From NCBI GenBank assembly GCA_950295325.1, contig OX485808.1, positions 44,164,527 through 44,228,526 on the forward strand: a stretch of DNA of 64,000 bases, written 5' to 3'. A program made the translations under genes and the position numbers. The notes beneath the pieces are model-generated. The model did no database searches. It was not told the DNA's origin and saw nothing but the letters and a program-made list of their open reading frames with translations. The stretch comes from Polytrichum commune (lineage: Eukaryota; Streptophyta; Polytrichopsida; Polytrichales; Polytrichaceae). Positions 31,748 to 53,400 of the stretch are shown here, in pieces; within the stretch, counting starts at the first letter, position 1, and each line of letters starts with the position of its first letter.

Positions 31748-31757
31748 TCCTGGAAGA
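31748..31757. repeat. 10-bp target-site duplication, left copy
   Basis: TCCTGGAAGA, repeated at 48337-48346. Length fits MULE target duplications (8-11 bp). Merging the two copies restores a continuous minus-strand frame. Confidence 0.75.
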
Positions 31758-31770
31758 GAGCGTTGCTAGG

Positions 31771-31795
31771 GCATGAGCGTAGAGCGTAGAGCGTA
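31771..31795 (+). repeat. Terminal inverted repeat, left
   Basis: GCATGAGCG followed by two TAGAGCG units and TA. It is identical to the reverse complement of 48299-48323. The AGAGCGT heptamer is itself repeated, with one more unit at the right end. Confidence 0.85.
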
Positions 31796-32210
31796 CATTT
31801 TCTGAATTTTGAGCGGAGAGGAATTATTTTTAGTAATTCTTTTGTCCAAAAATAGAAAATTTATTTTGGAAAACGTATATTCCTCAGAATATTCGAATAT
31901 TATAGTCTTATGACCGTGGAATTCAGTACCCATAACCGTGCAAAATGGGCTTGACATGGAATAAATTTATCTGTGACCGAGTTTTGGAGGAAATAGAAGA
32001 CTTCATTGAATAGAACTAAAAGGACACATGTTCACGGATCAACACAAGTGAAGGACAAGTACAAGTGATTCATAAATTTAACATAGCGAACAAATAATAT
32101 ATATTTATATATACGTATTCACTAAATTGTGAAATACATAGAGTGACGTGTGTCATACACGTTTATGAAAAAGAACATATATATGAGACTAATAAATAAA
32201 TCTGCTGAAT

Positions 32211-35200
32211 TTAAACTGTAGCATGGGCTAAGATCCCCCTTTCAAGAATTGTTTTCACCTCCTTGAAACTGAGGGTAGGCGCATGCATGAAGAGGTCATG
32301 GTCGGCCTCTAGTTTGCAGACTTGTACGTAGAGATAGTAAAGATGCTTACAAGGTCGGAATGGACACCCGCGTCTACCCAGCTTAGCCATTGTCTCTTTG
32401 AACGCCGGGCAATTGCAGTCTGGGTAGGCACTGATTGAGAGATGGTAAACTGACTCCGTGGGAGCTGGTTTAGATTGCAAAGTTACAACGCATCCAAAAC
32501 CGGGTTGAGGTATCATTACTACCTTCAGAATACTTGCCTTCATTGCTCTAGCGGAATCAATGTTCTGCATGTGCTTCGAACTGGCACAAGTGATTGAGCG
32601 GCGCATGTTCTTTGACTTTCGTGTTTTTGGATAAACGTCCGCATTATCTGGCATTGGAACCTGTGACAGATCCGGTGGCGGTGCTACATTGTTGAACGTG
32701 CGGCTCATAGGAACGCTTTGCTTTTGGGGAAGTTGAAATCCCGCATTCTCCAACGCCTCAATCTCGGAACGTGTGAGATTGGTCCCTATCTTCACAGGCC
32801 AAACCGACGGGATGGGAGGTCGTTCCTCGTAATCCGAAAATGGCTCTATCCATCGTCGACGATGCCCCTTCACACACCTCTCAATATCGTCAGCACAGAA
32901 AAAAAACTGCTCCACCACCTTATGGTTACCTTTTTGAGGGTGGGTCCAAAGGCCAGTGTATGTGGGAGCTGGGGTGCTCTTCCCGTTTTGGACGATACGG
33001 GATGTACACTTTTTTCGAGTGACAGCCATCTGCGCCCAACAAGCCTTCGCAGAAACCTTATTAAGTCGGGCAATGTGCCATAGCTTCTCATTCACACGAG
33101 TCTCCTCCACGGCCGTCACCCGTCCAATATCTATGCCAGTTGAGGCAGGGGGCTGTGTTGGGCGTTCCACTTCCACTTGAACTTCCTCCTGGATGGTACT
33201 CAGATTTTGAGCACGAGCACGTGTCACCCTCCGACCCACTCGAGGACGTGAAAAATTAACAGTGTCTGGCCTATGAGTTTCTTCTTCGGCGCCAAGGGGA
33301 AGATCCGGCTTCCGTTTCCTTGACCCAAAAACCTCAGCTCCTTCGAGGTGTGCGTCTCGAGTACAGAAATCTTCGGCTCCGGGCATGTTCAAGACGGCTG
33401 CGTTCAGGGTAGTCGGATCCCCGGTTCGGTGAGCTCGGCGTTGGGCTGTCCGAAGTCGAAGTTCTTCTCTCGAGGGTCCAGAGCCTACCGCTCCACCTTT
33501 GAGGTATTGATAGTACCCCACCACTTGCAGGAATGCTCTAACGTAATCGTCGACGGCTGCTACGTAGAGATCGCCACCCCTATTGCCGGACACTTGCAAC
33601 CATTTGTTGTGAACGGTCTCAGCAAAGTTGCAAGAGGGCATTTCAGCTAGTTCATCCGGAGAAAGTTTCTTCTCCTGTACGAAGGCAACTGGTTAAGAAA
33701 TGTTCGGAAACTCAAGTGAGCAAGGAGGAGTCGTGGTGGGCCATGCCATTTAAAAGCAAAAGATTTAATATTGTTTAGATACTACATTAGACGCAGAGAA
33801 AAAAATGCAAACTTAAAGAATTGAATAATTTGAATGAAAGAGTGTATACTTACCAGTTCCATGAAACCACCCCACTGCCTGTATCAGAAATGCCAAAACG
33901 CAAGCCAATGGTTCAAATGGTGGAGGCATGCGTCAGAGGTGGCACCCGAAGATGTCCACCAGGCTTTGATTGCCAAATAACGTGTTTCAGCCTCTGCCAC
34001 AGACTGTGCATCTTTGTACTGCATACACAATTTCTTGTGTTGATCTTGCAATTCGTGCACGATGTATTGTTTGGTGTGTTTTTGTAGGGATTGCGCCCAA
34101 TGGAAATAACACGTTCGCTCGCGGCCTTCCATGGGTATCTTTGGGTCTCCGGATCCGTATATGATACGCACAGCGTTCCAATTGGCTAGAGCACTATCCG
34201 CCATGAAACCTTTGAACTGTGGCTTGTGTATTCCATGCCTACCCATGACGTGGTTAAGGTTCTTCCAGAACACGAGTTGAGCATCTTTGTCCTCAGACTG
34301 GAAATCACAACAAGCAATGGTGAGTACACGTTGGTAAGAGGAGTCATACACGTGGCAGGCCATGGTGGTCCAGTTGGCAACTCGTTTGACGTGGTCAAAC
34401 ATCATCCATGAGTGCTCTAAATCGCCGCTAGGTTGCATTCGGCGGACAAGGTCAACACCGCTGCCAGGTCCCACCTCGGACATCTTGAATATGAAGACCT
34501 TGTCGGAGTCGTCACCTTGGCCTGGAAACATGTTTCGTTGCACGTAGGCCCAGTTGCTAAGCCCTCTGAGCTTAGTGATGCCATCAAGAACGCCATATCT
34601 GCGTAGATACTTGAAACTGTAGACACGGTTTTTTAAGTTAGGGGAGTTGAGCTCCTTGCAGCATTGGAAGATAGGCTCTAGCTGTTCCAGAGAAAGTAAG
34701 GTGGGAGGGTCGTCTTCTTCGCGGAGCAAGACGTTACCTAAAACATCATTGCTAGTTTCCAAGACTATTTTGGAAATGGTAGCTTGCGGGTTGCGCTCAA
34801 CATGTTGTTCGATCAAATCGTCTATTATCTTCCGCGTGCCCCTATAGTCTCCTACCTTGACATGATGTTTATGGTTGCCTACATGGACGCAAGCACGCTC
34901 TTGCGTATCATCTCCAAAAACGTAGAAGATTTTTGCATCACAAGAGGCTACACAAAAAGGAGGTTCTTTACAGATCTTACAGACTATTGTTGAAGTTGGA
35001 GGTGGAGCGTCTGCAACAGGGAAGGCATCTTTGGAAGAACCTTCGAACTCGACCTCGTTCAATCCAGATGCGCGTTCAGGCCGCTGCAGAAACCCACATT
35101 TGGGATTGTGGCATTGAAGATGACCTACACAGTTAGACGACCGGAATGACAGCCCCAACGTGTTACTGATGTTAGTAGTCATAGTCTTTGTCCACATATG

Positions 35201-35965
35201 GCCATCGTAACGTTTGTCCATACCTTCCATACATTTAGCATTCTTCTGGACGGCAGATGGAAGGGTGGGAGGAAGAATGAAGATTATATCCCCATTGAAC
35301 GACGGTGGCAAGAAATCTACGTACTCAATACGGATGGAATCATAGTTCAGTTTTTTAAGGACTGACTTGCTTCCAGGCATACTACCCAGGGAACGAAGGG
35401 AGGGAAGAATGTTTATCAGTTTAGTAGTTTGCGAAGGTATAAGGAAAGGAGTAGTCCTACGTGAATCTTGAGAAGAGGAGGGAGATGGACGCTTAGCACT
35501 CGACCGGATTGATGGATGGGAAGGCCTCCCCTCATCATCAGAAGAATCGGACAAATCGATGCTAACGCGGAGACCTGGTTCGATCTTGACACGAGACAGT
35601 AAGGGGGCTTCAGTGCACAGTGTGGAGGAACTGCGAGGAGTGAGTAGGACTGTAGAAGCGTTCATGGACTCCGACAAGCCAAAGACGCGATACCTTCCGG
35701 GCTTGAGTTTCCAAACGCGAGCATTATTGTCTAACGTTACGGGCTGGACGTATAAGGAATAAAGGACATTTCGAGTTTCTGGATCGACAACATCTGTCTC
35801 TAACCACAAGCTATCAGCATCGAAACCATAACGAATGGATAGCCACTGGGGAGTGAGATCAGCGGTTCCATCAGGGCCAGTAGGTATGCATGTAGGGATA
35901 AGAGATCCAAGAGAAACAAATTCGATGGCATCGAAGAGTGGAGCTTGGACAGCAGCGGAAGACAT
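32211..35965 (-). pseudogene. MULE transposase with SWIM zinc finger (one in-frame UGA)
   Basis: Two exons. Exon 1 runs 35965-33854 from ATG (MSSAAVQAPLF); exon 2 runs 33674-32211 after a 179-bp intron (donor AACTG|GTAAGT, acceptor CGTACAG|GAGAAG, phase 0). Exon 1 has a disordered N-terminus, a Cys/His cluster (CHNPKCGF about residue 280; CKICKEPPFC and HVGNHKHH about 325-370) recalling the zinc modules of MULE proteins, then an MULE-type DDE core with MMFDHVKRVANW, GFMADSALANWNAV and CYFHWAQSL. Exon 2 ends with a SWIM finger (CNCPAF...RPCKHLYYLY). A TGA at 33886-33884 breaks the frame 10 codons before the splice site; the frame reads on as YRQWGGFMEL into exon 2. A TATATA lies 68 bp upstream of ATG. 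No other lesion is obvious. Confidence 0.8.
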
Positions 35966-36032
35966 TGAGAAACAATTTGACAAAGCTATGTGAATGCAAT
36001 TGCAAAAGGGAGATTGAAAAAACATAATGGGA

Positions 36033-36038
36033 TATATA
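36033..36038 (-). promoter_or_regulatory. Putative TATA box of MULE transposase
   Basis: TATATA within TGTATATATC on the minus strand, 68 bp upstream of ATG 35965 and downstream of the neighbouring small gene. The two genes may therefore have separate promoters. Confidence 0.4.
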
Positions 36039-36127
36039 CATGAGAGGTTGATGAAATCGTTGGACATCCCAGACATGTACAGGATGTAGTCAGAAAATGT
36101 TTGGTTAATTATGGGAAATATTAAGAA

Positions 36128-36565
36128 TCATGGAGTGCCAGACGAAAATGGGGCATTTTCCATATGGGGCCCTTTGCCATATTTCTCACCGTCATGTTTA
36201 TGACAATGGTCAATCCCTAAACTACGAACTGCAGTGCATCCTGCGCAATCGAGTTTGTGACCTTTGGCACTCCTTAATATGGATCTAGAGTAAGTGCCAG
36301 GTTTAATAACCCCAGCTCTAGAATAGGCATGAATCTTGAAAGTAGACTTGTTCTGTATTAGTGTTGCATCAACTGCCCGCAAAGATGGAGTCTGTGGTTT
36401 AGGAGTGTGAACGACGACCACCGGAGTAACTGAGCAATCAGGTGGGTTGGCAATCTTCATGTTGTTGACGTCTGCAGAACCATCGATGGACAACGTGGTG
36501 TGAAGTTGACATGAACTAGAAGCACCTAATGGAGCAAGGCTTGGGAGACGTGAGACAGTACCCAT
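36128..36565 (-). CDS. Small protein with endonuclease VII/HNH-like motif
   Basis: 145 codons from ATG 36565 (MGTVSRLPSL); a TATA-like ATATAATA lies about 52 bp upstream, which decides this start. The N-terminal two thirds are Ser/Thr/Pro-rich. The C-terminal part has LDCAGCTAVRSLGIDHCHKH: C-x2-C, then a hydrophobic-IDHCHKH block. This resembles the first half of the treble-clef/HNH motif of recombination endonuclease VII (C-x2-C...L-x-DHCH). The usual second C-x2-CN pair is not visible, so it may be truncated, divergent or a chance likeness. It sits 163 bp upstream of the MULE transposase on the same strand inside the giant element. Function unknown. Confidence 0.5.
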   Translation of the reverse strand: MGTVSRLPSLAPLGASSSCQLHTTLSIDGSADVNNMKIANPPDCSVTPVVVVHTPKPQTPSLRAVDATLIQNKSTFKIHAYSRAGVIKPGTYSRSILRSAKGHKLDCAGCTAVRSLGIDHCHKHDGEKYGKGPHMENAPFSSGTP

Positions 36566-36616
36566 TGGAGAAGAATATGATGAGATGACATGAAGGAAAG
36601 GGTACCAATAATTGGG

Positions 36617-36626
36617 TATTATATAC
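36617..36626 (-). promoter_or_regulatory. Putative TATA box of small gene
   Basis: GTATATAATA on the minus strand, about 52 bp upstream of ATG 36565. Confidence 0.4.
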
Positions 36627-37226
36627 ACCTTGGGTAGACACCAATACCCAAATATATGACAACCTCTTAGATCAATTAATAGTCAATATTTATTCATGTC
36701 AATTCTAGACAACCTGTTTCATGTAGGATTAGAATGTACTCCAGTAATAGTCATTATTTTTTGACCACCAAATATGATACATGTCAGTATAGACTAATTT
36801 TCCTATGCACTAAAAAATAACTCATTCTTGATAACCTAATATATGCTATGCCGAAATGATGAAGTTAAACCCTAAAGGTGTATGTACATTTTATGGAAAA
36901 ATAATAAATTTGAAAATTTGTGGAGGCCGTCATTGTCAGGAGAGATGCGTAAATATATCGACAAATTCGAAATAGATTAGTAACTGATGTTAGTGTTGTC
37001 AGTGATCTAATCTCGGATACCGCGTTTTATTAAACGTGGGAATATAATTCGATGACATAGCTTGATAGAAATTAAATACAAAGGAAAGGGATACAGAGGA
37101 CTAGCTTGGGAGACATGAATGTACGATTAGTTCCGGGAGGAGCATCTCGTGAGAGTAGCTAGTGTGCATGAGAGTTTGTGTAGGAGCAGAGAAGTTCGGG
37201 CATTGGTGGGGCATCGAGACGCACAC

Positions 37227-40200
37227 ATGAAGGAAACAGGGCACACAACAGTCTCTTTAGCGGAGCCGTCACGGAAGCCTAGGAAGAGGAGGGGCAGGAC
37301 GAACTTCAGCAACTCGAAGCAGAAGAGGCGCGCTGCGAGGGATCTGAAGAAGAAGGACACCCCGAGCATTGAGGGTCGTGGAACTCCATCGAACTTGAGC
37401 GACGAAGCGGAAGAGGATCAGGGAGGAACTTGGAGAGGGAGATGTAAAATACGGTCGTTACACCTAGAGTCGATAGCAGAAGCTGAGGACGCGGGCAAGA
37501 TTCACGGGACCTCAGTTGCAACAGCGATGGACGAGAGCGAACAAGAGAAGGAATCGAGTAGCAGAGCGAGTGATGCTAGTAAGATGGATTCACCTCAGCA
37601 GACAAGTGATCCTCCCGCGGACGATGTAAGTGTTTTCCTTGGAGGCTTAAGCTTCTGTTGAAACCCTAATCATTGCAATAGTTTGAACTAACGCGAGATA
37701 TGTTTGTGATTCATTAGCGAGAAGATAGCCCTGATAGAGGGCATATCTATAGGGACACGGATGATATAGAATTTCCAGATCACGAAGTGATAGCTTTAGA
37801 GGGAGAAGAGAAGCGCGCAAACTGTATTACACCGGCTATGCGGGGAGGCGCGGGACATCTGATGGAAGCAAGAGCGCCAAACAAAGAGGCCTCGAGGGAG
37901 CAACCGAAAAAGGCTCGATCGGAGACACTCGATGATTCATAAGTAAGGCAATCATTCCATTTGCATCTAGACTTCTCATTGCTGACTGAACATGAAACTG
38001 CATTCAGCTAAATTCCCCAGCTTTTGATAGAGGTGAGAAATTCACCAATCCCACAGATCCGTGGGATTGGAGAATGTATTTCTTGTTGGGAACAACAATT
38101 TACTCCCCATTCGTCACATTAAATTTTGCCTACCACATCAAGCAACGATACCGACATTCATCAATCCCACGGATCCGTGGGATTGATGCATGCGCATACA
38201 TTTTTACATCGGAGCTAACATTCACCAATCCCAAGGATCCGTGGGATTGATGCATGTGCATACATTTTTACATCGGAGCTAACATTCACCAATTCCATAG
38301 ATCCGTGGGATTGGCAAGTGTTTACGCAGTTGAGCAACGATGCCGACATTCATCAATCCCACGGATCCTTGGGATTGGCAAGTGTTTACGCAGTTGAGCA
38401 ACGATGCCAACATGCATCAATCCTACAGATCCGTGGGATTAATGCATGTGCATACATTTTTACATCGGAGCTAATATTCATCAATCCCAAGGATCCGTGG
38501 GATTGGCAAGTGTTTACGCTGTTGAGCAACGATGCCGACATGCATCAATCCCACGGATCCGTGGGATTGACAAGTGTTTACGCAGTTGAGCAACGATGCC
38601 GACATGCATCAATCCCACAGATCCGTGGGATTAATGCATGTGCATACATTTTTACATCGGAGCTAACATTCATCAATCCCACGGATCCGTGGAATTGGCA
38701 AGTGTTTACGCTGTTGAGCAACGATGCCGACATGCATCAATCCCACGGATCCGTGGGATTAATGCATGTGCATACATTTTTACATCGGAGCTAACATTCA
38801 TCAATCCCACGGATCCGTGGGATTGATACATGTGCATATATTTTTACATCGGAGCTAACATTCATCAATCCCACGGATCCGTGGGATTGATACATGTGCA
38901 TACATTTTTACATCGGAGCTAACATTCATCAATCCCACGGATCTGTGGGATTGAATAGTATGCACATTGTCATGCAACAAGACAAACATTAATCACACGG
39001 ATCCGTGGGATAGGAGAATGTCTACACTCATGGGCAGCGGGGCCCACGTCTTGCAATCCCACGGATCCGTGGAATTGATGAATGTGCATAAAATCTCACA
39101 GAAGAGGCTATAGTCTTCAATCTTACATGACATTTTTCATGAATTTTTCCTATTTTTTTCATGATAAGTCAGTAAACTTTATGAATTACGAGAATCTATA
39201 CACCATTTTCTTGAAAATAATCTAGTCTGTTTGGAACTACACTAAATAGGTTGATTAGTGTTGGATGGAGATTAGTGTTAGAGCCAATAGTTACCCAAAA
39301 CACTAAATGTTACTTGAAATTACAATTAGTGTTAGAATTTCCTTTGTCTTTATTTTGCATTATCTGAGTTGGGTTCCATTAAGTTTAAATTTTTGTAATA
39401 TCAAATTCCTAACATATTACATTTTATATGAGGCTCACATATCCTACCTCCAATTCTTCATTTGAAGATCTACAAAAAAATCATCTAACACTAAATGCGC
39501 TTATGTAAATATTCAAAGTTACTAATTGGTACAAATAGTGTTGGAGTTGACATTTGATGTTCTAACACTATGAAGACAATTGACATTTAGCGTTTTCGTC
39601 GACTATTAGTGTTTCCAACACTAATCAACATATTTAGTGAAGTCCGCCGACTGGAAGGAAGGGGAATCTTTTGAGCTGCCCGAGGGTGAGAGGCGGGCAG
39701 CGGAAAAATAGGAGGCCTTGAGGGGGGTCTGGGGAGAGCTGGGGCTTCTCTTTCATTTCTCTCTCTCTCCCCCTCAGGCTGGCTGAGAAACTCTGAGGGC
39801 TAAGCCTTGCCGGTTTTGGAAGCCGGGAAGAGGGTGCAGTCACGGGATGTGAGAGGAAGGTCTGCGGGCAAGGGGGCACCAAGAGCAGTGCTGCTAGCTG
39901 CGAAGATGGGGAGTGGAGAATGAGAGGACTGTCGAATCCACAACGCTGCACAGAAAAGTTCGAGAGGAGCAAGAGGGCTTCTCAAGATAGATAGATAGAT
40001 AGATAGATCAGGGGAGAGAGTCATCACACATGAGCTTCATGGTGAAGTAGCCTGCCTCCACTCAAATCACTTCACATGCTTTCCATTTCGCCTTCCTGCT
40101 ATATTTTGGATTTTTGCATTTCGCTACAACCAGGAACCTCATCTCTAATTTACCAGGACCCATCTGTTGAGTTGGTGCAGCCCTGAGCTGAATCATCTTC

Positions 40201-43200
40201 TTCCCGCACTCATCAACATCAGTTGGGCATGCATGCACTGATCAAATTAGGTTTTAGTGGTGTTGGGTCCGTGCGACTTAATAGATGCAAAAATGAATTA
40301 GGTGTTTTAGCAGACGGAGTGTGCGAGCTGAATCCCTCCTCTAAGGTGCTCCAAGTTATTGGCCAACGCTCAGGGTTACATACGGCCATATGCTTAGCCT
40401 GAAGCAATGTGAAGAATCATGCTTCAGATTGGCAGACATTGCTACCCTTACATGCTACAAAAAAATCATCTAACACTAAATGCGCTTATGTAAATATTCA
40501 AAGTTATTAATTGGTACAAATAGTGTTAGAGTGACATTTGATGTTCTAACACTATGAAGACAATTGACATTTAGCGTTTTCGTCGACTATTAGTGTTTCC
40601 AACACTAATCAACATATTTAGTCAGTCCATTAAGGCCGGGCTGCCTTTGGGTTAGGGAAAGGCTAGGATCTCAGATTTGACAGATGTTCTACAACTATCA
40701 TTCTGGATGAGGGCGAAGAGTCAAAAGCATAGATGGTTGGACATACGAAAGGTCATCTCTATAGGAGTAGCTTGCGTATGGATTCATTATTCCAGTATGA
40801 AACTTGTTTATATCCTTGTGAGGTTTCAGAACCTTTGTAGCCAGTTCCAAATAAACTCTGCTTTTGCAATTGATGCGAAATATGGCCTCCATGCCTAGCT
40901 ATGGTGGTGTAATGATTCTTGTGACTCATTTGAACTCTCCACATGCAGATTGCAATGATATGAATGACCACACTGGGGTTGTTGAAAGGACGAGTCCATG
41001 ATCATCCATAGTAGATTGGGAAAGGATGATAAATTTAATGAGGACTTTGTTTATCATATCTTGTCATCCAATCATAAAATTTTGGGGTTTCTTTATCGGT
41101 TTTGATTAAAATTATTGTTATCAATTAGGTAAGGTCAGAAGGAATTACTAAATGCCAGTTCGAATTTTACTTGTAATGTGGGAGCAAGCAGGAGGCGAAT
41201 TCATGAGGTGGCGTCAACAGGCGAAGAGTCGCAGAGGATGCACAGACTACAATGTCAGAGCAATAACCAATCAGCCAGGCGTCAACAGATTTCAAGGTGA
41301 TTTTAGTTACCCTATCTGAGTAGATAAGGACTGCTGCTTATGGCTATGGTTTATCATCTTAGATCTTCACAAAGAGTACACAGGCGCTGGTTGTAATAGA
41401 TGTACTTCATAACAGAAATAACTTATATACTATTCAGGTTGCAATACTCTCTCTAGTTTTCTGTGGAAGGAAGGTACATAAACCTTGGTAAGGTATTAAT
41501 TTCATGTAAGTACCTGACATAGGTTGTGTGCCATGTAGACATATATACTTCTTTCCCCCAGATAATGTCAGTTAGCGCTTTCTGTGAGTACAGGCCTTTA
41601 TCTACATTGCTTCTTTCTCTCGATTCTGTGATCTGAAAGACCGTCCTCGCGAAGTTGATCGATAGGGGAATGCACAGGTTTCTGATATGCGGTGGAGCGG
41701 TTGTTGGATTAGGTTCCTCGTGGTTCAATCTTGTGAATTGGCTCAAATTGGTGATGTCTTGGACTAATCCGGCTGCTGCTTGAATGACTACAGAGCTTGC
41801 TGGAAGAAGGTGAGGAGATGACTGTTGTTGGGCACGTCAAGGAGAAGAAATTCCTTCGTCTCAGGCGCTCCTTGTGAGGGCCACAGGGAAATTGCCTAGT
41901 ATTATTCTAGTAATTAGGATAAGTGGTGCAAGGCTGCAGCTGCATGAAGCTTAATTCCAGTAGAATGTTACTTTAGAGATGCACATGATCATGTTTGGCT
42001 ACCTGTAGAAGGGATTGTTGTCACAGTGGTATTAAAGGTGGGGATGCAAAAAGCAAACTCTATGTATGAGCAAAGCATTTGTAAATGCTCTTGAGAAAGT
42101 GAAAATCAATAAAGAAAAGGTGTTTTACACACCACTTGTGATCAAGTCAGCTGAGAAATGGAGGTAAGGGGTGACCAATTGAAGTTTAGTTGGTGAGGGA
42201 GGACGCCCCCCACCCAGCAGATTTTCACTCGTCAGGCACCTCGGTTGCGGCTTCGTGGACAATTTGCTCCAATCCCACGGATCCGTGGGATTAAGAGATA
42301 TGGTCAAATTTTCACAATTTCTTTGCTGCTTCATCTCATTAGTCTTTCATTTTGTTAATGCCATTTGTTTCTCTCTATGTAGGAGTTGGAGGGAATAGAT
42401 CTCTCCGATGATCTTGTGGTCTTGGAGCCCTCTGTGGAGGAGGAGCAAGCGGAGGATGCTGTGGACTTGAACAACGTCGAAGAGCTAGAGGATATTGAGG
42501 AGGTCGTTCCAGAACAACTCGAGCAAGTTGACCGGGTGAACACCGACGTGCAGGAGGTAGTTGATTTAGACACTTATGTCTTCCGTTCTTGCACCTGCAC
42601 TCCTTTAGAGTCGGTGGTTGAGTTATTCTCGTGTGTACTAAATTGAATCGGATGTTTGTAGACTCCCTCTAGACTTCCCGAGGAACCTCCCGAGTCAGCT
42701 AACCCCGAGGAAAGTGAGGTCAATCTTCGAGCGAAGCAGAAACAAGATTCGACAGCAGTCATCAATCGCCTCCGCATTCGGCCTCTTGAGAAGTCTCGAC
42801 TTTGCATCCCCCTCTGCCGCTTGCGGGATTTGCCACTCGTTCGGCCCATCAACGAGTTGGATGTCCAGAGGTTGGAGAACGAATTCGTTACGGGGTACCG
42901 AGATGGTGACCGTGTTCTCTATGTTTCCATCTACAACAACAAGGACGACATCTTGGAGGTCACGGAGGACATCTCGTCCACCTGGAGTCCGTTGTGGAAG
43001 CTTGAGAGTGAAAGATTCGATGCACGGATGGCCGCCGACCCCGATCTTGTCCACTTTGTGGGCAAGATGTTCTACGTGTGGGAGGGGAACCACCGGTTGA
43101 CCGCTTGGTGGCGCCACGTGAACAGGTTCCATCCTACGGAAGAGGAGTGGCATATCTCTCCCTATTGTATTGCCTTGGATTCGCGGAAGCATAGTGGCGT

Positions 43201-46200
43201 TCTCATGAATGCCATGAACGACGTGAATTGGTATGTCTCTCTCTATTCTTTGCTACTTCATTCTTTGTTTGTGAGTGTCTTCTCATCTTGTCTTCTTCAA
43301 TTTTTTGTAGGTCTATCGAGAACAACCACGTCAAGTCCAGCCTCCCTGTCGCGCACCTCTCCATGAGGAGTGCCCGAAACACCATGGGCACAAGGGGGAC
43401 CCCGGAGTGACACCCGGGACTTGTGGCGCCGTTGGTGAGAGGGCCCAAGTGATCCTAGTGTGGGTGAGGGCCCCGGGCGTTGGGAACGCCTCCCACCCAC
43501 GAAGACTAGGAGGCACAAGGGCAAGGCCATGAGCTATGCGTAGCTCATGGCGTGGTGATTCTAGAATGCTCAAGAACACCTCAATCGGAGGTGTGAGCTA
43601 GGAGTTATGGCCATTTGAGTGGGGCGCTGTCCCGGGACAGCGCCCTGGTACAGCAGTGCCTGGGAGGGATTCCCGGGACTGCCAAGGTTCAAACAGGCAT
43701 AACTTCCTCAAGACTTGCTCGAATGGAGCAAGTGAGGAGTCCATCGGCATCTACGTGAAGCGTAGATGAGGATGGAGTGGTTGGTGGTTATGATCAGACA
43801 TCATACAAGGAAGTTATGATGGTCTGAAGCTGCTGGGGGGTTCTAGGCCCAGCAGCTAAAGGAAAATGTCCACTTGGCCCCAACTCTTGGTAGAGAGACA
43901 AGAGGTTGGTTGACGGTGGGGTAGGGGCCCCGCGTGAAGTCCTAGAGGCTTATATGGGTGAGGTGGTGTGGCCTCACCCACCCGAGGCCGAACGGCAAGG
44001 CCTCCATGGGCTTTGGCCTATTGTGAGGCCATAGTTGCCTAGTATGGTTCGGGTTGTTGTAGTGTTGCTCCGGCAATGCGATGATCAACATAGGATTGGA
44101 CTTCCATGAATGGAAGTCCACATTGGGGAAATGGGTTACCGATTAAGGGGTGAGTCCCGAAAGCAAAGTAGGAGGGTTGGTTCCCTCCTATGAACTATTG
44201 GTCCGGGGTAAGAGGAGCTATCCATTAGCATGGCGGAATGCGAAGGGTTAGCGACTCGTAACCTTTGCTAGAATTGAAAATTGGCAAGATTATTAAGGGA
44301 CCTAGCAAGGGTTGCGACACTCCCCTCCAAGCTTCACCGCATCCGCTACTTTGGGACCTTGGAGTTTGAGGACTTCAAGGACCTCATTTCCAAGGAGGAT
44401 TACTTGGCTTGTATCAATGCCAAGAGGAAGCACAACACTTGGTACCCCTTGACCATCGACGTCTTCGTCTCCTTTCTCTACAAGGTAATCACTTCCCCAC
44501 ACTTTGATTTCTCTCCTTTCAATTTCCATCTTCTTCGTTGGCTTACCTTTGCTTGCAACCAGAGAGAGATCTCCGCCGCCTCCGACGCTGCAGCTAGAGC
44601 TTACAAGGATGAAACTCCGGCCGATCAGAGGACCGCTCTCGGTGTTTGGAGGGCCATGACACTTGCTGAGGAGAAGGCCAGAAAGTCCATTCTCTCCAAG
44701 AGCTTCGAGAAGTATGTGGCCGTTGCCAACTCCGAGAATACCGACGCCTTCTTTGATGAGGTGCTCCTCTTCATCTTCTTTTCTCCTTTGATTTGTCCTT
44801 CATGATTTCTTCTCGATTTTGCTAACTCACCTCCAATTTCCTCATCTAGATCAATCGGCACTTCTCGGTGAACACGGTCCCGGACATGACCATCGAGAAG
44901 CTTTCTAAGGTGGCCAACACTCATGTCCCGTGTCATTTCAAGGCGAAATGGCTCCGTTGGTGGAATTCCACCATGACTATCCGAACCGGCAACAAATTCC
45001 CTTCCATTGTGCCCCTTAAGGAGAGGGTCCTCGAATCCTGGCTTCATAAGGCCTCTTTCTGGGCTCAGGTGAATCTCTCCCCTCCTTTGGATTGATTGTT
45101 TTCTCTACGGTTGTCTATCCTCATTTCTTGTTTTTCATTCTATGACTACAGTTGGAGGACAGGGTTGATTTGGAGTTCAAGTCCTTAGAGGCTAGCCTTG
45201 GTCGCGCCATCAATTGGGATGTGCAAGGGGGTGTGTTACGTCCACCAAAGTTCGTGGATGGATGGAGGATCCTTCTCTGGGACCACGCCTTCCCGCATTA
45301 CTTTGAGGAGAAGTCAAACACGAAGTTCCTCAAGGGCACGAACCTCACTGAGATTGAAGATGGTATCAAGATCATTCACCGTGTCCTTCATAGGTATTTC
45401 TTCCTCCTCTCCACTTGTCCTTCATTTTCTTTGCAACACTCGAACTTCTCTCATTTTTTTCCATGTCTTTTGCTTTAGGTACATCTATCACGAGCTTATT
45501 CCGAAAGAAGCTCTTTCTGCCTCCTTTCTACCGGTCTATGTCGAGGAGTGGGTTCTGGACTCCTCCCCGAATTTCATGTACACTGACGAGCACGATGTTT
45601 ACCCATTTGCTCACCTCAAGCATGCAGGGTGGTATTTGGACTGTTCGAAGGGGTTCGTTCCTCCCTCGGAGGTTCATTTGTTCACCTCTTTGAATGCTGA
45701 GGCACCCGCTGATGTTGTCTTTCACGAGCCCGTGGTCCCCGAGGAGTCGGTGAAGGGTACGAAGGCATCGAAGGTTGTTAAGGAAATCAAAAGCAAGAAG
45801 GTGAAGGCGGTCTCGGGTACTCAAGCTTCCCAAGCCACTGTGTCTACTCGTTCTACTACGAAGGCCGCCGCCGAAGCTTCCGCTGCACCTGCTGCCACCT
45901 TTGTAGGTAGCCCATCCCTCCCTCTTGCCTTGCATGCCCCCGCTTCTTCTCACAGCACAGCCACTGCCCCCTCTTTGACTCGCAAGAGGAAGGCATTCGC
46001 AGCAGCAACGAGTGCTACATCCTCTGAGACTGCTTCTACCTACAGTCTCATTGAGAATGTAGACATCGGAGTGCTCATGGACCACTACACGAAGACCAAC
46101 TCCCATCAAGCGGCCTACCTTCGCATCGAAGAATTCCTTGTCAAGGTAGGAGTCCACTTCTTTTTTCATTCTTGCATTCATTTCTATCTTGTGAAGCATT

Positions 46201-47530
46201 CCTCTTCTCTTCTCAACCTTCTTCTTTGCTCTACAGGTTGGTGTCGGTCGGACTCGCCTTAACAGGAATCCCAAGTCCCATACCGGTATCGACCTTCTCT
46301 TTGTCGATGTACCGGACAATCTCCCGGTGCCCGCCATCTCGACTTCGCCATCCGACATTCCAGCGTGGAACCGCCGGGGTCCGAGTTTCTTTGATGATGT
46401 CTTTACTTTCGCAGAGGACAACCTCCATGACAACGGTGTCCTCGTCATCATGCACCCCGATGCCCCCAAGATGCACGACGACATTCGCGATTGGGCCTTG
46501 GAATGTCACTTTACTATCGCCAGGGACTGGTGGGGCGTGAATGATCTTCACCTTACGTCCGCACAAGATCCCAAGATGTTTGTAAGTATTTCTTCTCCTC
46601 CTCTTCATTTACTTCAAGTTGTACATTTTTCTTTTTGTCACTAACTATGCAATTTTCTTTGTAGACAAAACGCTTCTTCATCAAGGTTCTTGTGCCCCTC
46701 GGCTCCACTCTCTCCGTTTACGAGGCGGAGGACTATTCGAAGTTGGGCTTCTCATTGGAGAAGGATTCCCTTCTCCACAATTTCACGAATGAGGAGAGCC
46801 AGCTCATGAAGGATGGCAAGGTGCCATGGAGAGGGGCTCGAGAGAAGAGCATGGAATTCTTAAGCATTGTTATCCAGACGCTCACGAGGAAGCACGACAT
46901 TGTCATGGATTGGCAATGTGGCACAGGTTTCTCTTTGCCCTCCTATACTTTGTTTTTGAGTTTCATTTCTTGCTTTTGCATTTTTAATTTTTTTCTCTAC
47001 CTCACTCAATTTCTTTTCATTTAGGTGCATCCATCACTGCGTGTCGTATGGCTGAGCGCCACATTGTGGCGCTCGAGCGAGACTCGGAGATCTTCGAGGC
47101 TGTCCTGCTGCCTATGCGGGACTCTGTACCTCCGGCCGAACCCGTTGTCGCACATCCGGACCCCTCTTCTACTGAACCTCGGCAAAAGCTCCTGAGGCGT
47201 CACAGAAAGTGTGCGTAAGTCTGATTTCTAACTTAGCACCTCTTTCATTGGTTTTTTTTTCATTTCTTTTCTTGCTTTAGCTTATGCATTCTAGTATGTT
47301 GCTTTGTGTGTAGAGTTCCACGGGAGAGCCCTATCCGTGTCCTCAACCCGGACATGTTTCGAAGCCCTCCGCGGGCGTTCGAACTACCTTCGTATGCTGG
47401 TGGGCTTGCCCATCAGTTCGCGGTCGCACCATCTCCACCTATTACTCGCGCTCGTCCTGTTGATAGGCGTGTGTTGGAATATTTAGATGTAGAGGCCAGG
47501 CAGGGAATGGAAAGTGATAGAGATGACTAG
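37227..47530 (+). CDS. ParB-like / beta-class DNA amino-methyltransferase-like fusion gene
   Basis: Exons: 37227-37625, 37718-37942, 42383-42556, 42662-43230, 43311-44484 (with a 915-bp insertion), 44563-44760, 44850-45068, 45152-45393, 45479-46145, 46237-46581, 46665-46926, 47025-47214 and 47314-47530; all junctions are GT-AG and phases agree. The N-terminus is basic (KPRKRRGRTNF), then acidic. Exon 4 has GKMFYVWEGNHRLTAWW, like the G-(N/x)-x-R core of ParB/sulfiredoxin folds. Exons 46237-47214 carry methyltransferase motifs in permuted order: IDLLFVDVPDNLP (motif IV position), then REKSMEFLSIVI and MDWQCGTGASITACRM (motif I, DxxxGTG) with HIVALERDSEIF. TAA ends exon 2 right at its donor; exons 1-2 may be a separate 207-residue product. 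Probably decayed in this copy. Confidence 0.65.
38047..39076. repeat. Array of 22-bp palindromes at 64-bp spacing
   Basis: Sixteen copies of a 22-bp perfect or near-perfect palindrome: AATCCCACGGA followed by its reverse complement, with GGATCC at the centre. Starts are 38047, 38163, 38227, 38291, 38355, 38419, 38483, 38547, 38611, 38675, 38739, 38803, 38867, 38931, 38991 and 39055: thirteen intervals of exactly 64 bp, one of 60 and one of 116. The 42-bp spacers are of two kinds (TGCATACATTTTTACATCGG and GTTTACGCAGTTGAGCAACG). The array begins 105 bp after the donor of exon 2 of the cargo gene. Confidence 0.95.
39241..39638. mobile_element. MITE-like element, 398 bp
   Basis: Terminal inverted repeats of 24 bp (ACTAAATAGGTTGATTAG... 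and ...CTAATCAACATATTTAGT, 23 of 24 matching). Interior AT-rich with repeated TTAGTGTT. It is inside the large intron of the cargo gene. The ends resemble the MITE at 3758-3964. Confidence 0.65.
39985..40008. repeat. (AGAT)6 microsatellite
   Basis: Six perfect AGAT units. Confidence 0.9.
40455..40622. repeat. Partial second copy of the 398-bp MITE
   Basis: About 168 bp nearly identical to 39470-39638 (from CTACAAAAAAATCATC to ATATTTAGT), in the same orientation 985 bp downstream. The left half of the element is missing. Confidence 0.85.
40623..42270. other. Intron sequence, no gene recognised
   Basis: Remainder of the long intron between cargo-gene exons 2 and 3. No transposon termini or coding frame were identified. 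Together with 39077-40622 it separates the palindrome array from its lone downstream copy. Confidence 0.5.
42271..42292. repeat. Lone copy of the 22-bp palindrome
   Basis: A perfect copy of the array palindrome, 90 bp upstream of the acceptor of exon 3 (42383) and about 3.2 kb from the end of the array. Confidence 0.95.
43397..44311. mobile_element. ~0.9-kb insertion in cargo-gene exon 5 (LTR-like)
   Basis: CAAGGG occurs at 43391-43396 and 44306-44311, flanking about 910 bp of GC-rich non-coding sequence. Removing 915 bp (a multiple of three) joins ...RNTMGTR to VATLPSKLHR... in frame, in the middle of an otherwise open exon. The insert includes TGACACCCGGG near its left end and GCGACA at its right, and a TATAT-containing block, recalling a Ty3-type solo LTR, but the ends at the duplication are not TG...CA. 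The family is undetermined. The insert introduces a TGA at 43408. Confidence 0.55.
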
Positions 47531-48298
47531 GCGTTTTATAAACTATGAATAGCATTATAACACAAAAAAAATATGTTTTCTTGCCTCCAAACACCCATGG
47601 GGCGTTTGGTTATGTTAAAGGGCACATGCGTCTCTAAAGTGATGCTTGGAATGGTTGGAGCTCGATGTTCTTCCTTTGTCATATAATTTCTTATATGAAG
47701 TAATAAAAGCCCTTGACATAGTAATTGTTTCCATTCCCCACACATCATATAAGCTTTATATCTAGGTGGGGGAGGGAATTATTGCATACGAACGTATCTA
47801 TCACTCGTCCACCGTGAAAACCCTAGAATAGTATGTAACTTTGAGTACTATTGTTTCTTATTAATTTGACATCAAAATTTGAGGCCAATCAACCTAAAGA
47901 ATATTCACTTGTTGGATTGTATAAACTTCGCCATTTAAATTATTGTTTCGAGGATGCCCGCATCTAAATGATGAAGCCAGCCCTAATTACGCCCTTAGCC
48001 TTAAACACTAAAACAAATTTGTGAATTAATTAAAACACAATTTCATTTCAACCTTGAACGGTCCTCATTTAAATCACCCTTTCATTTAAATGATGACGTC
48101 AGCCCTAATTTCACTATATATATAATAACAAAAATTTGCAGTAGGACCCCCTTCCACGGATTTGCGGTACTCTTTTCCCTAAAAATATACATTTACAATT
48201 TTGTCCGGACAAAATTCAGTGGTAATAGGATCCTTATGTTTCAATAAATTTTTGAAAAACGAGCGGAGAAATTCACGAAAACATGACGCTCACCGCTC
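47531..48298. other. 3' flank of cargo gene within giant element
   Basis: AT-rich, with no gene recognised. It ends at the right inverted repeat. Confidence 0.5.
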
Positions 48299-48323
48299 TA
48301 CGCTCTACGCTCTACGCTCATGC
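48299..48323 (-). repeat. Terminal inverted repeat, right
   Basis: Reverse complement identical to 31771-31795. An additional CGCTCTA/CGCTC unit precedes it on the inner side. Confidence 0.85.
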
Positions 48324-48336
48324 TGTAACTTTCCCC

Positions 48337-48346
48337 TCCTGGAAGA
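48337..48346. repeat. 10-bp target-site duplication, right copy
   Basis: TCCTGGAAGA, as at 31748-31757. Confidence 0.75.
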
Positions 48347-50432: not shown

Positions 50433-53400
50433 ATGGGGGACCCAACAGCCCGACCACACCTGAGGGATCCCATACGGATAGCAATGCGGGATGAAAAGTT
50501 GTGGCGACGAGAGGCGGCAATGTATGCAGCCCACCGCATAAAATTGGTGCCTTGCCCTTGCAAAGTTTGCAAAGGGAGCAAGAAACACATGGCAACAAAC
50601 AAAGTAGAAAGCCACCTTATGACAAATGGGAGACACCACTCATTTAGAAAATGGAGAGGCCCTGGTCCACGGGACGACTCCGACAATGAATGGGATAACC
50701 ATATTCGCGGAGGCGGAGCTCTGCCTCCACCACTCCCAATAGATGAAAATGTTGGATTGCAAAAGCTGTTTCATAATGTGAATGTTGTCCATGCAAATGT
50801 TGTTCCCCCACCCCAAGAACCTAATGCTCCACCTCCAACAGAACAAGATAACCTCCCAGATATGATGGCAAACTGTGAAGACCCTGGGTTCGCTAACCAT
50901 GTAATGGATGTTGTGCAGCAAGCTCAGACTATGGTAGAGGATGTGCAGGCATAACCAGACTCCATAGCAGAGCACGACAATGTGGTTGCAGATAATGATG
51001 GAAATGAACCCCTCTCTGCACCTGGCACACCCGAAATGGCGGACGAAGGGACGGGCCCAGGAGACATACCAATGGATGCAGTGGAGGATTTAAATCTAAC
51101 GGAGGTGCTGTTGTCGTGCCACCCTTTGTTCCCGGGTGCATCTGTAACGAAGCTTGCTGCCACCATGCTCATCATGACAATATGCACAATTCATGGTGTA
51201 AACAACAAATTTGTGGATGAATTACTATATCTTTTGAGCAAGTACATTCTGCCCCATCCGAATTCGTTGCCTTTGAACATGTACCATGCTAGAGTGCTTG
51301 TGGAGAAGGTCAGTCTAGCTATGAGAGCATACACGCATGCAAAAATGGATGTGTGTTGTTCCAAGGGGATGCATACAATGATTTAACAGAATGTCCAGTG
51401 TGTAATGCAAATCGATTCAAAGCATGTGGAAGGTCACAAGTGCCGGTGAGCGTTCTGAGACACTTCCCTCTGATACCCCGACTAGTCAGATGGTACAAGT
51501 CACCGAGAATAGCAAAAATGTTGAGGTGGGCTCACCTGAACAAATCCAGCGATGGCAAAATGCACGGTGTCCACGACTCCCCAGCGTGGCGTGCAATCGA
51601 TACAAAGTTTCCTTCCTTTGCTAGAGGTTTCCGGAACATCCGCATGGCATTGTCAGCAGATGGTTTCAACCCATTTTCATCCCTTCTATGCCAATGGTCC
51701 ACTTGGCCTGTATTTGTATTCATATACAATTTGCCTCCTTGGATGACCACAAAACGTTTTTTTGTCATCCCTGTCTTACTCATTCCGGGAAAACATTCAC
51801 CCAATGGAGGTAACATTGATGTGTACATGAAACCTGTTATAGATCAATTGAAACAACTTTGGTGGCCTGGTGTGTGGGCAGACGACCACAGCATATCCCC
51901 AGAACTTACGCGCAGGTTTAGACTCCGAGGATGTTTGATGTGGACAATCAATGATTGGCCAGGCTATGGCCTCCTATCTGGTATGGCGCATGCCGGCTAC
52001 GCTGGCTGCCCCCCCTGCGGGCCAGAGGTGACCTCAAGATACTCGAGGGAGTTGCATAAGTGTTTGTACACTGGCTCACGACGCTGGTTGCGATCAAGGC
52101 AACACCCTTACAGAAGACCAAACTACAGTGCAGCGTTTGGAAACGAAACAGAATCGCGGGCGCAGCCCAAAAGGCCAACAACGACAGAGATACTGGAAAG
52201 GGCAGAAGAGTGTAAGAAATGGCTAGAGTCTGGCAATGTGGCGGGAGGAGAGCTTGATCCCTCGAGGTGGCACGGTGTGAAGAGAAGATCGTGTTTCTTT
52301 GACTTACCCTATTTCAAGGTAAGTCCACTGCACACTACGTAAGCATCAGATTCCAGGGTGAACTAACAGGGGCTGCACATTAAGAGAGGTTGTGAAAAAA
52401 TAGCATAGAGTTCATATTAACTTGCGACAGGATGTATGTGCAGCATTTTCTTGTGCGGCATTGCACAGACGTTATGCACGTCGAGAAGAATGTTTGCGAA
52501 AATGTGGTGAAGACAATCCTCGGAGAGAAAGACACAATTGCATGCAGACGAGATATGGAGGCAACAGGAGTCCGCGAAGAACTATGGCTGGTTAAGACGA
52601 CCAATGCCCGAGGGAAGACGAAGGTTATAAAGCCTGCCGCACCGTACGTACTGAATGATGTGGACCTCCCCATCTTCATGTCCAGACTAGCAGCCCTTCA
52701 GGTGCCTTCAGGATATTGCGGTGCCGTTGCAAAGCATATAACACTCAGGAAGCTGAGCGGGATGAAGGCGCATGACTGGCACGTTGTCATGCAACAGTTA
52801 CTGCCATTGTGCACAAGGGGTCTCCTGGACCGCGGGCCTCGCACAGCAATCATGAGACTGTCGCGCGTTTTTAGAAGAATTTGCGCTAAAGTCATAGACC
52901 CCACCGACATGGTCAACCTCAAAGAGGACGTTGCTGTTACAATGTCAATGCTCGAGATTCACATGCCTCCGAGTTTTTTCGACGTGATGTCACACCTGGT
53001 GATACACCTCGTGGAGGAGCTAGAGCTGTGTGGGCCCGTACACACACGCTGGATGTACAGTGTTGAGCGAATGAACAAGGTTTTAAAAAGGTACGTCAAC
53101 AATATGGCCAGGCCAGAGGCATGCATGGCAAAATCGCATGTGCTGGAAGAGGCAATTGGACTGGTGGCCGAGTTTATGACTGACTATGAGCCACTACATC
53201 GCAATGTGTGGACAGAGGAGGCTAGCGCAGGGATTACCGGGGAGGTTCTGGAAGGAGCTGGAACCACATCTGTTATCACACCCTATATGAGAGACATTGC
53301 ACACGAGTACCTGCTTCTAAATCGCACATCATTCCAGCCACTGTGCAGGTATGAGAGAAACATAATCCTAAACTCCATTACCGGTTCATCTAAAAGAATG

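Follow-up and report, generated by a model that had tools for sequence, protein, structure and literature searches.

Why would a DNA transposon in a plant chromosome carry, beside its transposase, a ParB/methyltransferase-like gene and an array of short palindromes? The question is raised by an element at positions 31758-48336 of a stretch of 64,000 nucleotides from Polytrichum commune (assembly GCA_950295325.1, contig OX485808.1, positions 44,164,527 to 44,228,526 of the forward strand), hereafter the window. Comparison with its relatives across the genome (407.8 Mb scanned, with seven large contigs of 42-78 Mb) inclines us, by a modest degree, to read it as an exchangeable two-module transposon whose cassette protein binds its own palindrome and counters silencing. 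The first module would consist of the transposase and the inverted-repeat ends, and the second, the cassette, of a protein with ParB/sulfiredoxin-like and degenerate amino-methyltransferase-like parts together with its own palindrome array, placed between divergent genes. Both modules lie within one unit, bounded by terminal inverted repeats (TIRs) and a target site duplication (TSD), which inserts precisely. The genome has four matches to the LEAFY SAM domain above its cut-off, as against none in 14 control genomes, a result that points to a land plant or a near relative of land plants.

The transposon, 16.6 kb in length, is flanked by the 10-bp duplication TCCTGGAAGA, the left and right copies of which (31748-31757 and 48337-48346) are its only two occurrences in the whole window, one on each side of the element. 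The left end (31758-31795, plus strand) and the right end (48299-48336, minus strand) contain 25 identical bp in inverted orientation (31771-31795 and 48299-48323, respectively), and their outermost 13 bp match only partially. The original prediction, made from the letters of this stretch, had claimed the same duplication and repeats as well as an open reading frame (ORF) split by the element and rejoining in phase, all of which was borne out: removal of the element and of one duplication copy yields a 222-amino-acid minus-strand frame across the junction. Empty sites, proposed as a check, were likewise found, as the joined flanks matched over their full 256 bp at six other genomic places (four at 97-98% and two at 84% identity), which are, judging from these matches, empty paralogous sites in a dispersed repeat.

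A search for other copies with the same ends, proposed along with these boundaries, recovered 31 exact matches of the right-end 20-mer and 28 matches of the left-end 20-mer at up to 2 mismatches, with a reversed-pattern control of 0 in both cases. These matches form 26 convergent, correctly oriented pairs, the window's own among them, and 21 of the pairs have an exact 10-bp duplication; among the remaining five, one has an exact duplication of 9 bp, one a duplication with one mismatch, one a duplication with a one-base indel (judged from printed flanks) and two have none, which brings exact or near duplications to 24 of 26. Seven end matches (five right, two left) were unpaired. The left end of locus L054 (C4:9051225) and the right end of L055 (C4:9078627) have nine flanking bases in common though the left end is reversed, an arrangement that would be expected if an inversion had carried one end together with its duplication. 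The eleven whole elements measured, four of lineage A, to which the window copy belongs, and seven of lineage B (lineages are named after their palindromes, see below), were 10.8-16.6 kb long; the other 15 end pairs span, by their end coordinates, up to 43 kb and in one case 91 kb, the longer ones probably containing nested insertions.

The same gene pair recurs on a much larger scale. The ParB-like exon has 1,238 candidate places in the genome and the transposase 1,656, and all 150 scored in each search matched. Of the 150 ParB-exon places listed, 90 lie within 40 kb of a listed transposase that is oriented divergently, as expected, five have a listed transposase in another arrangement, and for 55 there is none among the 150 listed; random placement yielded a mean of 1.19 and a maximum of 5 divergent pairings in 200 trials. 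Ten window-type ParB-like genes (95-100% identity) were present among the matches listed; for nine of them the distance to a right end is 4.1-5.5 kb (one such end being unpaired), and the tenth is situated within a 43-kb end pair. This closeness to the family ends ruled out a ParB/methyltransferase-like gene that is independent of the ends and always found without the TIRs. The cargo, first described as unusual, is instead a recurring component of a very large family, with the array belonging to the cargo gene, and the recurrence of the pair throughout the genome also ruled out a unique pack of unrelated host genes. The wider family was active recently: ten listed transposase places, that of an element of lineage C included, are identical in score and in the length of their open frame, and two C copies, each flanked by a separate 10-bp duplication, are 99.4-99.8% identical where their ends were compared.

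The palindrome array claimed for the element was confirmed as 16 sites of CAATCCCACGGATCCGTGGGATTG at 38046-39077, mostly 64 bp apart and with two spacer types, plus a single palindrome with one mismatch at 42270-42293, just upstream of the ParB/methyltransferase-like gene. The array is located between divergent genes, in the window copy 6.3 kb from the nearer end. Sites of CAATCCCACGGATCCGTGGGATTG number 8-23 in the four A copies and those of GACCCCTGCGNNNNCGCAGGGGTC 2-28 in the seven B copies, the two never occurring in one copy. Eleven further loci were chosen by hand among the listed ParB-exon places for their diversity and, in most cases, their closeness to a transposase place. Among these, CACCCTCTCGGNNCCGAGAGGGTG is present at 7-46 sites in eight D loci and the GAGGCCTCGGATCCGAGGCCTC type at 22-33 sites in two C loci, and L063 has four copies of a fifth palindrome, GGGTGCCGTAAACGACACCC, the fit of which is post hoc because the search for it followed the recognition of the common centre. 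All five types are 20-24 bp long with a CG-N4-CG centre, and 21 of the 22 loci compared have exactly one of the palindromes A-D, none having two of them. The C-family loci L060/L061 and L066 contain, besides the main palindrome, 3-4 copies of a second one, GCCCACGGGTGNNCACCCGTGGGC. Genome counts per strand were 194 for A (up to 2 mismatches), 159 for B, 1,347 for D and 2,678 for C (up to 1 mismatch), with a reversed-pattern control of 0 for each of the four. Individual positions cover about the first 100 matches per palindrome; all A and B matches listed fall, by a by-eye comparison, within end pairs or beside unpaired ends, and among the C and D matches listed two singletons (C1:13839475 and C1:9750565) lack a partner gene among those listed. 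The B array at C2:69440179-69453723 extends over 13.5 kb, with at least 57 exact sites among the matches listed, mostly in steps of about 169 bp.

This arrangement would fit a device for autoregulation only, through which the protein represses or balances the pair of divergent promoters and leaves silencing unaffected, as the array stands between the two genes and a single palindrome is found just upstream of the cassette gene in all four A copies. Simple autoregulation rarely needs tens of sites, and a B element with 57 or more argues against this explanation, which we regard as unlikely.

The relationship between palindrome and gene became apparent from comparison of the lineages. Between A and the seven B copies, the left 5.4 kb (84-97% identity) and the last 440 bp (89-93%) are alike, the left match forming one block in three B copies and two or three blocks with missing parts in the other four. 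The cassette between them (37105-47896) differs between the two subfamilies: no same-strand blastn match longer than 80 bp was found there at E ≤ 1e-10, except that three of the seven B copies match over about 100 bp at 47531-47629. Despite this, the middle parts encode homologous proteins, with identities of 38% between A and B, 51% between A and C and 39% between B and C (the C sequence compared lacks both of its termini). In a tree of 22 ParB-like exons each palindrome type forms one group, so that 4 changes, the minimum, are required (as few in 0 of 200 shuffles), and B is set apart from all others with a support of 100/100. The tree of 19 transposase cores, made without L063 and two B copies lacking an unbroken core match, has another shape: A and B are near-identical sister groups, C is placed among the D loci, with a support of 100/100 for the fork joining it to five of them, and type D needs 2 changes and forms a single group in 0% of bootstrap trees. 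The two trees are most simply read as the result of at least two exchanges in which the transposase was retained and cassette and palindrome were replaced together. Lineage A is itself a recombinant with a cassette closer to that of C than to that of B, because its engine is near-identical to B's and its cassette protein is closer to C's (51% versus 38% identity). A small basic ORF of the A cassette, which lies in two pieces on the plus strand (37131-37625 and 37718-37939) with no start codon assigned, is consistent with such a recombinant origin: related sequences occur in the two C loci and in all eight D loci, and none was found in the seven B copies or L063. As gene and array were exchanged as a pair and also differ as a pair, the cassette protein most probably binds the palindrome of its own lineage.

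These exchanges also bear on a possible role of the cassette protein as a transposition cofactor of the TnpA kind, for which the array would be the assembly site; TnpA of Spm is a known transposition cofactor. The protein is encoded in the element beside the transposase, and a second protein binding a repeated motif would resemble two-protein transposons. The array, however, is internal, several kb from both ends, and A and B combine near-identical transposases and ends with deeply different cassettes, which means that cassette and ends are not matched; we consider a cofactor of this kind decidedly unlikely.

Linkage alone would explain why neighbours move together, and slippage spreads tandem repeats, so the palindromes might be passive repeats matched with the gene simply by adjacency. 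Linkage does not explain why the palindrome is kept and the spacer is not. Array units measure 95/108, 107 and 139 bp for D palindromes and 127 and 167 bp for B palindromes. With the palindrome removed, D spacers of L058, L062, L068 and L067 gave best scores of 25.6-27.4 bits against 23.8-29.2 for shuffled sequences (four pairs tested), those of L068 and L064 were slightly above shuffled (25.6 versus 19.3 bits) and those of the two B units barely so (24.7 versus 22.9 bits), whereas spacers of near relatives match at 98-99%. One palindrome type thus persists between unlike spacers. Out of ten arrays, eight (three of A, four of D and one of C) have palindrome columns that are better conserved than their 22-bp flanks (0.95-0.98 versus 0.64-0.86), in a comparison that leans towards the palindrome because sites were picked by palindrome likeness. 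Together with the CG-N4-CG centre common to five lineages, these observations make passive repeats a very improbable explanation.

The ParB/methyltransferase-like gene (42383-47530, plus strand) was modelled with 11 exons set by eye. The A protein corresponds to a frame of 1,088 amino acids that is open in three other A copies, all without the long terminal repeat (LTR) present in the window copy, and the B protein, of 1,135 amino acids, is open in one copy. Its N-terminal part is encoded by the ParB/sulfiredoxin-like exon (42662-43230, plus strand), in which the motif EGNHR is invariant in 19 of 19 ParB-like exons. A Foldseek search with a low-confidence model of this exon returned ParB, Noc or sulfiredoxin in ten of the top 11 rows, all with E ≥ 1, and VIA did so in nine of 13 rows (Z ≤ 4.3); a sequence profile of the exon had no ParB match in PHROGs or NCBIfam, and matched DUF6551 with a best E = 0.00081 in three of 19 members. 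The methyltransferase-like domain (46237-47214, plus strand, three exons; motif IV DVPDN, motif I DWQCGTGAS) matched DpnA at E = 6.4e-6 in the motif I part and CcrM at E = 0.011 over the whole domain, in the motif order IV then I. CcrM in NCBIfam (E = 1.1e-4) and Pfam N6_N4_Mtase (E = 0.0023 for A, no match for B) remained under their cut-offs, and PHROGs phage methyltransferase families were matched in all three lineages scanned (best E from 6.4e-6 to 0.0018). With separate exons, Pfam yielded one sub-threshold match beyond the neighbouring Tnp2. The fusion first proposed is therefore supported by profiles in its methyltransferase part and weakly, by fold, in its ParB part. Alignments A1 and A3 against viral contigs, and A1 alone against bacterial and archaeal genome contigs, gave no confirmed relatives in scans that need a short conserved peptide, so that this negative carries little weight.

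Profile matches of this kind would also be expected if the cassette protein were an active DNA modification enzyme, methylating the palindromes of its own element as a self mark or a chromatin change. In beta-class amino-methyltransferases the catalytic motif IV is of the DPPY/SPPW kind. The cassette protein shares with CcrM and DpnA, beta-class adenine methyltransferases, the motif order and the profile match, but unlike them it has an altered motif IV in the four lineages sampled (A, B, C and L076): DPPYN is replaced by DVPDN in A, DAPED in B and DIPEN in C and L076, i.e. D[VAI]P[DE][ND], with an acid in place of the aromatic residue. One B copy with stops has DAPEY, and the motif I of lineage B, DWSPSTGAS, has lost its first glycine. 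Eight extra genomic intervals were examined for this domain, of which L075 (a C copy) and L076 (next to L063) held it, four ended too early and two had no match. As motif IV is altered in all four lineages, catalysis by the cassette protein is doubtful, and active methylation appears improbable. Between B sublineages, the ratio of nonsynonymous to synonymous substitution rates (dN/dS; six B copies, two of them without three exons) was 0.28-0.35 in all nine cross comparisons, which speaks for the exchangeable two-module reading.

The closest parallel is found in Arabidopsis, where the VANDAL transposons encode VANC proteins. VANC acts with motifs that are specific to the family and lie in tandem repeats of its non-coding regions (PMC5735166), and related families have other motifs (PMC5735166, PMC10398659); an element-encoded protein with family-specific repeated non-coding motifs, both changing together between related families, is what is seen here as well. 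The protein in Polytrichum, being ParB-like and methyltransferase-like, is probably of another kind than VANC; the VANC21 motif is the 9-base YAGTATTAY as opposed to palindromes of 20-24 bp, and the VANDAL duplication is listed as 9 bp (PMC6446971) as opposed to 10 bp. D-type palindromes also occur on the cassette-gene side of the L068 element (C1:16459010-16460518), perhaps in introns, as with some VANC motifs. Fungal DNA transposons with TET/JBP dioxygenases (PMC12730594) likewise carry a gene of DNA-modification type as a possible counter to silencing; their enzyme family is another one, and "tandem repeat" and "ParB" occur 0 times in the available text of that paper. Among the titles and abstract openings listed in searches of the open-licence PMC literature, none describes a plant DNA transposon that combines palindrome arrays with a gene for ParB or a methyltransferase. 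On this analogy, the cassette looks like an independent analogue of VANDAL/VANC anti-silencing.

With VANC-like logic built from different parts, sequence-specific anti-silencing by occupancy is proposed as the likeliest function, ahead of active methylation, a transposition cofactor and plain autoregulation. We see the chances as evenly balanced that the protein, by binding to the many sites of the shared promoter region, protects the element's genes from host silencing, as VANC does for VANDAL. This would operate by occupancy or ParB-like loading and not by base methylation, and in the A copies the single site beside the cassette gene would make expression of that gene depend on the same protein. 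Bacterial ParB-parS combines a ParB-like domain with clustered short palindromic sites, a likeness that extends to the cassette, as does that to the ParB/methyltransferase fusions that exist in phages; unlike the bacterial system, the present one is a transposon in a plant chromosome. More tentatively, and with more doubt than belief, we suggest a self-recognition of the parS-ParB type, in which a retired methyltransferase with a ParB-like domain would load on the palindromes of its lineage and block silencing, the cassette remaining exchangeable.

Several results weigh against the favoured interpretation, that of an exchangeable module whose protein binds its own palindrome and counters silencing. 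Five other B copies have 1-3 in-frame stops each in the cassette gene (six of seven B copies were examined, C6_36.3 being left out), and dN/dS within B sublineages rises to 0.48-0.86 in six comparisons, with many copies decaying. The model of the ParB-like exon is of low confidence (predicted local distance difference test, pLDDT, 55.1), and its profile had no ParB match in PDB. In the ParB-exon tree, group D has a support of 91/94, under the starred level. In two B arrays the palindrome is not clearly above its flanks (0.945 versus 0.958 and 0.932 versus 0.912), a point in favour of passive repeats. Finally, a CpG footprint of silencing is mixed, as arrays are richer in CpG than the rest of the element in three A copies and poorer in two B, four D and one C.

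The nature of the first module was addressed separately. The transposase is encoded on the minus strand by exon 1 (33854-35965, with an in-frame stop at 33884-33886 in the window copy) and exon 2 (32211-33674, with a SWIM-like CxC...CxH near its end), and its frame is open over 1,191 amino acids in another copy. This open frame matched zero Pfam families at E ≤ 5, so neither MULE nor SWIM, and an alignment of the exon-1 core (14 members) had no MULE or SWIM match in Pfam either, its best match, FERM_M (E = 0.0029), being regarded as chance. The core had no match among PDB profiles, its structure model reached a pLDDT of 33, and hhalign against the frames of four canonical MULE loci of this genome gave a probability of 0.4% with very shallow alignments. 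The MULE domain PF10551 is present at 142 places elsewhere in the genome, the nearest of them 3.6 kb from any of the 150 listed transposase places. The SWIM-like pattern reads CNC...CKH in the window copy and the C family and CNC...CKR in the open-frame copy, and the stretches HVYD, MADSAQ and CYFHW presumably resemble the D, D and C-x2-H motifs of the MULE/hAT group. TIRs and a duplication of 8-11 bp (PMC6446971) are common to MULEs and to this family, both C copies having 10-bp duplications within that range, and a SWIM-like cysteine pattern may be shared as well; unlike MULEs, its transposase has no PF10551 match, and its elements reach 10.8-16.6 kb in the eleven measured whole. As Pfam, PDB profiles, shallow hhalign alignments and fold gave no assignment, the element is MULE-like by anatomy only. 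Of the MULE transposon originally proposed, the size, the ends and the duplication stand, and the Pfam MULE model does not match; membership is partly supported, resting on the 10-bp duplication, the inverted repeats and the cysteine pattern.

The remaining features concern mainly the window copy. A small minus-strand ORF with CxxC...IDHCHK (36128-36565), for which tblastn matches were confined to A and B copies, had been described as HNH-like, a resemblance that is weak (Pfam Endonuclease_7, E = 0.064). A solo-LTR-like insertion of 973 bp (43347-44319, TGTCGC...GCGACA, with the 5-bp duplication CTCCC) lies within the cassette gene and is missing from the three other A copies compared, and the gene has no Met where the three other A frames begin, at the presumed start codon. 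With the transposase stop, the lost start codon and the solo LTR, the window copy is dead. Near-identical direct repeats of about 169 bp (39470-39638 and 40455-40622) flank about 0.8 kb between the array and the cassette gene; the stretch 39470-40622 may be a separate small insertion, because part of it is unmatched in copy C5_25.3. To the right of the element, at 51293-52339, a Tnp2-type (CACTA, PF02992, E = 1.1e-61) transposase fragment of another element was identified.

Large DNA transposons, 11-17 kb where measured, are thus present in high number in a plant genome. It is an open question how transposons can act against silencing and yet leave the rest of the genome closed; among plants, the example found is VANC. 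If the interpretation given here is true, these elements would represent an independent invention of the VANC strategy, and escape from host silencing could be traced through many protein-palindrome pairs in one genome. Five natural protein-palindrome pairs, and recombinants in which only the pair was exchanged, would make both specificity and its evolution directly testable.

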